Positions 32,041 through 34,007 of a stretch of 64,000 nucleotides of DNA are shown here, piece by piece; position 1 is the first letter of the stretch; each line of letters starts with the position of its first letter. A program made the position numbers and the translations under genes. Below the pieces are notes generated by a model, which worked only from the letters and a program-made list of their open reading frames with translations, had not been told where the DNA came from and did no database searches. Origin of the DNA: Alphaproteobacteria bacterium (GTDB taxonomy: Bacteria; Pseudomonadota; Alphaproteobacteria; Rhodobacterales; Rhodobacteraceae). The stretch covers positions 1-64,000 of the forward strand of contig JAUHYC010000012.1 of assembly GCA_030426685.1 (NCBI GenBank). Reading direction: 5' to 3'.

Positions 32041-32559
32041 ATGAAACGCAATATCCTGATCCATCCCGATCCCCGCCTGAAAAAGGTCTGCGCGCCGGTG
32101 GCCGACATCTCCGACGATCTGCGCAAACTGGCCGATGACATGCTGGAGACGATGTATGACGCGCCCGGCATCGGCCTTGCCGCGCCGCAGATCGGTGTGC
32201 TGGATCGGCTGATCGTGGTGGATTGCGTCAAGGAAGAAGGTGAGGCCCCGCGCCCGCTGGTGATGTTCAACCCCGAGGTCATCGCATCGTCGGAGGAAAC
32301 CAGCGTCTACGAAGAAGGCTGCCTGTCGATCCCCGAGCAATATGCCGAGGTGACCCGCCCCAAAGTGGTTGACGTCACCTGGCTGGACCGTGACGGCAAT
32401 CTGCAGCAGGAAACCTTCGATGGGCTTTGGGCGACCTGCGTGCAGCACGAGATCGACCATCTGAACGGCAAGCTGTTCATCGACTACCTCAAACCGCTGA
32501 AACGCCAGATGATCACCCGCAAGATGCAAAAGCTGAAACGCGAACGGGCTCGCCTATGA
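32041..32559 (+). CDS. def: peptide deformylase (all catalytic motifs intact)
   Basis: GIGLAAPQIG, EEGCLSIPE, QHEIDHLNG. Confidence 0.97.
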   Translation: MKRNILIHPDPRLKKVCAPVADISDDLRKLADDMLETMYDAPGIGLAAPQIGVLDRLIVVDCVKEEGEAPRPLVMFNPEVIASSEETSVYEEGCLSIPEQYAEVTRPKVVDVTWLDRDGNLQQETFDGLWATCVQHEIDHLNGKLFIDYLKPLKRQMITRKMQKLKRERARL

Positions 32560-33050
32560 GCGTCCGCACTTGCTTGCCCTGGCCCGACAAACGCCTGCGG
32601 ACCAAGGCCGAGGACGTCACCGAGATCACTGACGACATCCGCGCCATCTGGGACGACATGATCGACACGATGGAGGCGATGCCGGGCGTCGGCCTCGCCG
32701 CGCCCCAGATCGGAGTGATGTTGCGGCTAGCCGTCGTGGATGGCTCCACCGAGCGGGGCCGCGCGGTGCGTCTGGCCAATCCCGAGATTCTGCACAGCTC
32801 GATCGAGCTGCGCGAGCATGACGAGGCCAGTCCGAACCTGCCTGGCGTTTCCGCCAAGGTGAAACGCCCCCGCGCGGTGACGGTGAAGTTCCTCAACGAA
32901 CAGGGCCAGATCGACCGCCGCGATTTCGTCGGGATCGAGGCCACCAGCGTACAGCACCAGATCGACCATCTGAACGGGCGGATGTATTTCGACCGCCTCA
33001 GCAAGGTCAGACGCGACATGCTGCTGCGCAAGGCGCGAAAATCCACGTAG
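32556..33050 (+). CDS. peptide deformylase-like paralog with degenerate active site
   Basis: GVGLAAPQIG retained; EGCLS replaced by EASPNLPG; HExxH replaced by HQIDH. Confidence 0.92.
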   Translation: MSVRTCLPWPDKRLRTKAEDVTEITDDIRAIWDDMIDTMEAMPGVGLAAPQIGVMLRLAVVDGSTERGRAVRLANPEILHSSIELREHDEASPNLPGVSAKVKRPRAVTVKFLNEQGQIDRRDFVGIEATSVQHQIDHLNGRMYFDRLSKVRRDMLLRKARKST

Positions 33051-33092: not shown

Positions 33093-34007
33093 ATGCGCAT
33101 AATCTTCATGGGAACCCCCGATTTCTCGGTCCCCGTCCTAAACGCACTCGTCGATGCCGGGCATGAGATCGCCGCCGTCTATTGCCAACCCCCACGCCCC
33201 GCTGGCCGAGGCAAGAAAGACCGCCCGACACCGGTGCACGCCCGCGCCGAGGCGTTGGGTCTCGAGGTGCGCCACCCGACCTCGCTGAAATCGTCCGAAG
33301 AACAAAACAAATTCGCGTCGCTGAACGCAGATATCGCCGTGGTCGTGGCCTATGGCCTGATCCTGCCGCAGCCCATACTGGATGCGCCCACCCATGGTTG
33401 CCTGAACATCCACGCCAGTCTGTTGCCGCGCTGGCGTGGCGCCGCGCCGATCCACCGCGCCATCATGGCAGGCGATGCGCAGACCGGCATCTGCATCATG
33501 CTGATGGAGGCCGGGCTCGACACCGGCCCTGTCCTGCTGCGTGAGGCCACCGATATCGGACCCGAAGAAACCACCGCCCAACTGCACGACCGGCTTTCGG
33601 ACATGGGGGCGGCGCTGATCGTCGAGGCACTGGCCAAACTGCCCAGCCTCACCCCCGATCCGCAACCCGAAGAGGGCGTCACCTACGCCGCCAAGATCGA
33701 CAAATCCGAGGCGCGCATAGATTGGTGCAACCCTGCCAGCGAGGTCGACAGAAAAATCCGCGGCCTCTCGCCATTCCCCGGCGCGTGGACCGAAATGGAA
33801 GGCGACCGCATCAAACTCCTCGCCTCACGGCTGGCCGAAGGGCAGGGCGCACCGGGCGAGGTGCTGGACGACCGCCTGACCGTGGCCTGCGGCGAAGGTG
33901 CGGTCGAACTGCTGCGCTTGCAAAGGGCTGGCAAAGGCGCGCAGGATAGGGAAACTTTTTTGCGGGGCTGGCCCATCCCGGTCGGCACCCGCCTGTCATC
34001 GGAGTAA
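33093..34007 (+). CDS. fmt: methionyl-tRNA formyltransferase
   Basis: [20 protein letters not shown]..., [27 protein letters not shown]. Confidence 0.98.

Follow-up and report, generated by a model that had tools for sequence, protein, structure and literature searches.

The window, a 64,000-nucleotide stretch of a Rhodobacteraceae draft genome (contig JAUHYC010000012.1), carries two overlapping peptide deformylase (PDF) genes followed by fmt. The features are listed below, with substitutions numbered as in E. coli PDF.

32041..32559, + strand: def1, canonical peptide deformylase (GIGLAAPQIG, EGCLSIP, QHEIDH)
32556..33050, + strand: def2, putative conserved pseudo-deformylase of 164 aa (ORF, PF01327, alignment, AF2 model)
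32556..32559, + strand: ATGA start/stop overlap of def1 and def2
32685..32714, + strand: def2 motif I, kept as GVGLAAPQIG, with Gly45 and Gln50 invariant
32823..32843, + strand: def2 motif II, EASPNLP (Cys90→Ser, Leu91→Pro, Ser92→Asn)
32952..32969, + strand: def2 motif III, QHQIDH (Glu133→Gln, both His kept)
33003..33044, + strand: def2 C-terminal helix (model residues 150-163), basic at the uL22/23S rRNA contact positions of E. coli PDF
33093..34007, + strand: fmt, methionyl-tRNA formyltransferase

The start of def2 (ATG at 32556) overlaps the def1 stop codon (32557-32559), and the gene ends with TAG at 33048-33050. A first-pass annotation, made from the letters of the window, had described def1 as canonical, with GIGLAAPQIG, EGCLS and QHEIDH, and def2 as an intact ORF overlapping def, placed before fmt and reading GVGLAAPQIG, EASPNLPG and HQIDH; all of these readings were confirmed. 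No promoter-like site was found inside the def1-def2-fmt operon, and terminator-like sites there were near the shuffle expectation, so that neither an internal promoter nor an internal terminator is supported. In a profile search of the 3.87-Mb draft genome, def1 and def2 were the only PF01327 genes, and def3, a third paralog present in relatives, was absent. The closest named relative is Ruegeria sp. ANG-R, whose Def2 is 98% identical.

The Def2 signature and its conservation

PDFs remove the formyl cap from newly made proteins. In these enzymes a Cys and two His residues bind the metal, the Glu of HExxH is the general base, and the backbone NH of Leu91, which a Pro would lack, helps to hold the formyl oxygen. 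Def2 shares 44% identity with Def1, and its PF01327 score of 141.9 bits (cut-off 22.8) makes it a member of the peptide deformylase superfamily. Motif I of active deformylases (GxGLAAxQ) is present in Def2, but the Cys of EGCLS and the Glu of HExxH are missing, the motif III codons being CAG CAC CAG ATC GAC CAT. Loss of the ligand Cys had already been proposed for def2; the alignment bears this out (C90S) and adds that the next residue is replaced (L91P) and that Cys129 is also Ser. The single Cys of the Def2 encoded in the window is residue 6. Type 3 PDFs are defined by substitutions in motifs I and II, and Def2, with motif I intact and motifs II and III altered, falls outside this type.

The family was surveyed in 298 Rhodobacteraceae genomes, nearly all one per genus. 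Deformylase matches were present in 290 of them, and a Def2 ortholog, assigned by score, in ∼250. From ∼260 loci every PDF ORF was taken and aligned to E. coli PDF, a reference sequence verified solely at its catalytic residues. Of the 166 distinct Def2 orthologs obtained, Gln133 and Pro91 were each found in 166/166 and Ser129 in 164/166. Position 90 was Ser in 165 orthologs, Pro in one and Cys in none, and position 92 was Asn in 155 and Cys in 11; Gly45, Gln50, Glu88, His132, His136 and Gly139 were invariant. The other PDFs (n = 294) had Cys90, Leu91 and Ser92 without exception and Glu133 in 293/294, the remaining case being a misread frame. No intermediate between Def2 and the canonical form was present in this sample (166 Def2, 294 other PDFs).

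The fixed Def2 codons showed common synonymous variants (Gln133: CAG 156, CAA 10; Pro91: CCG 83, CCC 65, CCA 15, CCT 3), hence selection acts on the protein sequence. Recurring with such variation in 166 distinct orthologs, the Def2 pattern is, as judged from the alignment, far beyond chance. Rare variants reading EAPPNLP or EASPCLP occur at loci L139:1498-1986 (+), L122:1498-1989 (-) and L134:1486-1986 (-). EAPPNLP (one ortholog) has a Pro at the ligand position, where all the others have Ser, and EASPCLP (11/166) has a Cys at position 92, two residues off the normal ligand Cys.

With a one-ratio codon model, omega was 0.06 for def2 and 0.06 for def1 (36 loci with both genes) and 0.13 for def3 (21 loci); these values are rough, because synonymous sites are deeply diverged. 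The eight catalytic-site positions change about as slowly in Def2 (mean site rate 0.084) as in Def1 (0.057), and 0/20000 random eight-position sets were as slow as the Def2 catalytic site. The stripped site thus stays frozen, implying that the pocket retains a role in ligand binding, metal binding or core structure. Among the listed def2 matches no internal stop was found, bar one fragmentary copy (G158). With its fold intact, its catalytic residues gone in all orthologs and purifying selection acting on it, Def2 has the properties of a conserved pseudoenzyme, and decay or sequencing error as the source of def2 is excluded by ortholog conservation.

The first-pass annotation had argued that Def2 is not expected to work as a normal deformylase, and that simple decay does not account for it. 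The former view is in line with the residue counts (Gln133 in 166/166, Cys90 in 0/166) as a prediction from sequence, and the latter is upheld by orthologs in ∼250 of the 298 genera and by an omega like that of def1. The comparison across Rhodobacteraceae that it proposed found the HQxDH and EASPNLP-like motifs conserved under purifying selection; the contrary outcome, orthologs with intact motifs and a lone decaying copy in this genome, was looked for and not found.

Gene order, Def3 and the origin of def2

Nearly all complete loci read def1-def2-fmt or def1-def3-def2-fmt, and in 125 of ∼176 loci there was a 4-nt overlap between def2 and the def gene upstream of it. The proposed def-def2-fmt operon stands for this genome, which has no def3, but many relatives have def1-def3-def2-fmt instead. 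In ∼15% of the genera the arrangement was def1-fmt without def2, so Def2 is not essential to the family. A parsimony count gave 26 changes in def2 presence, of which at least three are well supported, the count of 26 resting on a weak single-gene tree.

In many genera Def3 (GRGLAAPQ, EGCLSIP, QHE[FYL]DH) is encoded between the other two def genes, for example at loci L006:1986-2480 (-) and L032:995-1501 (+), with ∼40 others. Its active site is complete, and an AF2 model shows the C-terminal helix; the tail has a net charge of about -1, the basic ribosome-contact residues are gone, and the protein evolves faster than Def1 and Def2 (omega 0.13). The gene in the def3 position carries an in-frame stop at G137:C1:2863-3303, G058:C2:869502-869945 and G289:C2:618862-619302, and, def1 being intact there, def3 seems to decay in places. 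Co-occurrence of Def2 and Def3 (38/91 vs. 4/36, Fisher p = 8e-4) comprised only three phylogenetically independent pairs and is not claimed.

In an IQ-TREE mixture-model tree, whose bootstrap had not fully settled, Def2 was monophyletic (100/99) and Def3 was its sister clade (100/99), both lying inside the deformylases of the family (91/95). A class-wide scan of 385 genomes for QHQxDH deformylases outside the family gave motif matches only in proteins lacking deformylase motif I. In a phylum-wide scan (399 genomes), 25 of the 27 matches fell inside the family and no outside deformylase was found; the other two (f188; G839, G856) were rejected as deformylases, their contigs differing from those of the PF01327 matches. 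Phage records contained no def2 relative above 60% identity and viral contigs none, and the plasmid collection gave one match above 60% identity, on a 1.58-Mb replicon of Pseudorhodobacter turbinis. A mobile origin of def2 was rejected on these results from phage, viral and plasmid collections. A contig labelled Nocardioides marinus (JAHVJD010000009.1, L073) carries a Rhodobacteraceae def1-def2-fmt with an 87% identical Def2; the assembly is most likely mislabelled or contaminated.

Fold and ribosome-contact residues

An AF2 model of Def2, with 73 orthologs in the alignment, had a pLDDT of 95.8 and a pTM of 0.91. All top Foldseek matches of the model were PDFs; the best among solved structures were canonical PDFs, such as the E. 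coli PDF-actinonin complex (1lru), with a TM score of 0.93 and an rmsd of 1.3. In the model the tail forms an alpha-helix (150-163), as in type 1B PDFs.

The C-terminal helix of E. coli PDF contacts uL22 through L149, K150, R153 and K157, and 23S rRNA through K160 and R163 (cited in Lamberioux et al., 2025, PMC12690207), and PDF and MAP compete for the ribosome site (PMC8712518, PMC8185961). Def2 has Lys or Arg at positions 150 (92/92), 157 (92/92) and 160 (91/92); residue 153 is Met, which the Def1 of the family also has, and R163 is not kept. The net charge is +6 in the Def2 tail, and in the body it is -4 in Def2 vs. -13 in Def1; the median pI is 9.07 for Def2 and 5.32 for Def1. Def2 thus has the basic residues of a candidate ribosome-docking factor at the PDF/MAP site, docking itself being putative.

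Compared with E. coli Def, a canonical type 1B enzyme, Def2 has the same fold, motif I, both His of HxxxH, the basic C-terminal helix and the def-fmt linkage, but differs in Ser90, Pro91, Asn92, Ser129 and Gln133 and in its pI (9 vs. 5.2). The predicted properties of the three paralogs are: (i) Def1 complete; (ii) Def2 with docking charges and without catalytic residues; and (iii) Def3 with catalysis and without docking charges.

Possible roles of Def2

Def2 is very probably non-hydrolytic on formyl-Met, and the basic contact positions that it has kept would, among the three roles suggested by the first-pass annotation, favour a ribosome or nascent-chain role over changed chemistry. The best explanation, to which we give an even chance, makes Def2 a family-wide pseudo-deformylase; by docking at the ribosomal exit, by holding formyl-Met ends uncut, or by both, it would tune the access of Def1 and MAP. 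That Def2 sits at the PDF/MAP tunnel-exit site, where it would hold or screen N-termini that are still formylated and act on Def1 and MAP as a brake or timer, has an even chance or somewhat less. A version in which Def2, with its natural HQxxH, holds formyl-methionine at the exit as a non-catalytic regulator co-encoded with def and fmt, delaying or blocking deformylation of a subset of nascent chains, with Def3 as an off-ribosome deformylase, is rather unlikely.

The pseudo-deformylase reading would begin with the duplication of def early in Rhodobacteraceae ancestry, one product being the lineage from which Def2 and Def3 descend. Along the stem leading to Def2, the ligand Cys, the residue at the Leu91 position and the general-base Glu would all have been replaced, and the new residues then frozen. 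The C-terminal helix would dock Def2 beside the tunnel exit, at the uL22 site contested by Def1 and MAP, where Def2 would hold or screen formylated nascent N-termini uncut and so set the extent or timing of Def1 deformylation; co-expression with def1 and fmt would maintain cutting and non-cutting protein at a constant ratio. Engineered substrate-trap metalloproteases carry HExxH→HQxxH. The same Glu→Gln is natural in Def2, which has lost the Cys ligand and has Leu91→Pro as well. A ribosome-bound Def2 that does not cut would mean that a dedicated competitor regulates deformylation, and we know of no such step in bacterial protein maturation. Two caveats apply: the basic helix is common to Def1 and may be inherited rather than functional in Def2, and, both His being invariant, a metal could still be bound and some chemistry left. 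Deviations in the motifs do not always abolish PDF activity (PMC12690207).

Def2 might instead act away from the ribosome, as a regulatory or scaffolding subunit that forms the inactive half of a heteromer with Def1 or Fmt. Translational coupling, the fixed gene order and the adjacency of fmt would suit such a subunit; bacterial type 1B PDFs are generally monomeric, however, and Def1 is equally conserved in genomes without Def2 and so does not need it, which makes a heteromer unlikely. The TldD/E metalloprotease offers a precedent, as a known heterodimer of active and inactive paralogs (PMC5810440). The likeness of TldD/TldE to Def1/Def2, as co-encoded catalytic and non-catalytic paralogs, is a general analogy; the folds are unrelated, and a Def1/Def2 heteromer is hypothetical. 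Changed chemistry would rest on a site free of Cys, built from the two His and Ser90, Gln133 or Asn92, which might carry another metal and be suited to another substrate or to oxidative conditions. We consider this quite unlikely: motif III has no general base, Pro91 has no backbone NH and no new conserved acid has appeared at the site, although H132, H136, Q50, E88, S90, P91 and Q133 are fixed rather than drifting, the active-site Cys90 and Cys129 are both replaced, with one Cys (residue 6) left in the Def2 of the window, and unusual accessory PDFs have been speculated to use other cofactors in oxidative stress (PMC12690207).

A decoy that soaks up natural PDF inhibitors (hydroxamates, N-formyl-hydroxylamines) and spares Def1 would fit a pocket that is kept overall, the actinonin resistance that accessory PDFs can give and the PDF-inhibitor gene clusters of marine bacteria (PMC12690207). 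Binding of these inhibitors depends on the metal and the catalytic Glu, however, both compromised in Def2, and resistance PDFs are mobile and patchy, whereas def2 is family-wide, vertical and in a core operon; a decoy is very unlikely. A weak deformylase with unusual motifs has a similarly slight chance. In trypanosomes, type 3 PDFs whose motifs deviate have been reported to be active (cited in PMC12690207), and Def2 passes the cut-off of the equivalog model TIGR00079, but no ortholog has kept the ligand, the general base or Leu91, and a Def1 with intact motifs adjoins Def2. Absence of def2 from ∼15% of the genera, with its few well-supported independent changes in presence, could point to a decaying or relic duplicate; the low omega, the invariant site and the lack of internal stops outside the fragmentary copy refute this as a general explanation and leave it almost no chance.

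Of the Rhodobacterales reference species, 98.1% have clustered PDF genes, 62.5% of that group carry three copies, and the rationale for clustered def genes was called "elusive" (Lamberioux et al., 2025, PMC12690207). This is the same cluster as def1-(def3)-def2-fmt; uniform catalytic stripping of one member and loss of docking charges in another are not described in the sections of that paper that were searched. Staphylococcus aureus and Streptococcus pneumoniae are known to have accessory PDFs of type 3 that are inactive (Margolis 2000, 2001, as cited in PMC12690207). Like them, Def2 is a motif-inactivated accessory paralog beside an active copy; unlike them, it is changed in motifs II and III rather than I and II, and its signature is clade-wide, fixed and in a def-fmt operon. 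Literature outside subscription sources gave nothing relevant on pseudoenzyme or E133Q deformylases. Inactive accessory deformylases were thus already known, and the clade-wide, operon-locked HQxxH form under strong purifying selection is, as far as this literature shows, new. The two- and three-gene def clusters reported in 2025 would now split into three roles, which makes the open question directly testable.

The analysis also raises an annotation issue. Def2 passes the NCBIfam equivalog TIGR00079 (128.5 vs. a cut-off of 103.95 bits), and the subfamily model NF001159 is likewise above its cut-off, so automatic annotation would label Def2 an active peptide deformylase.
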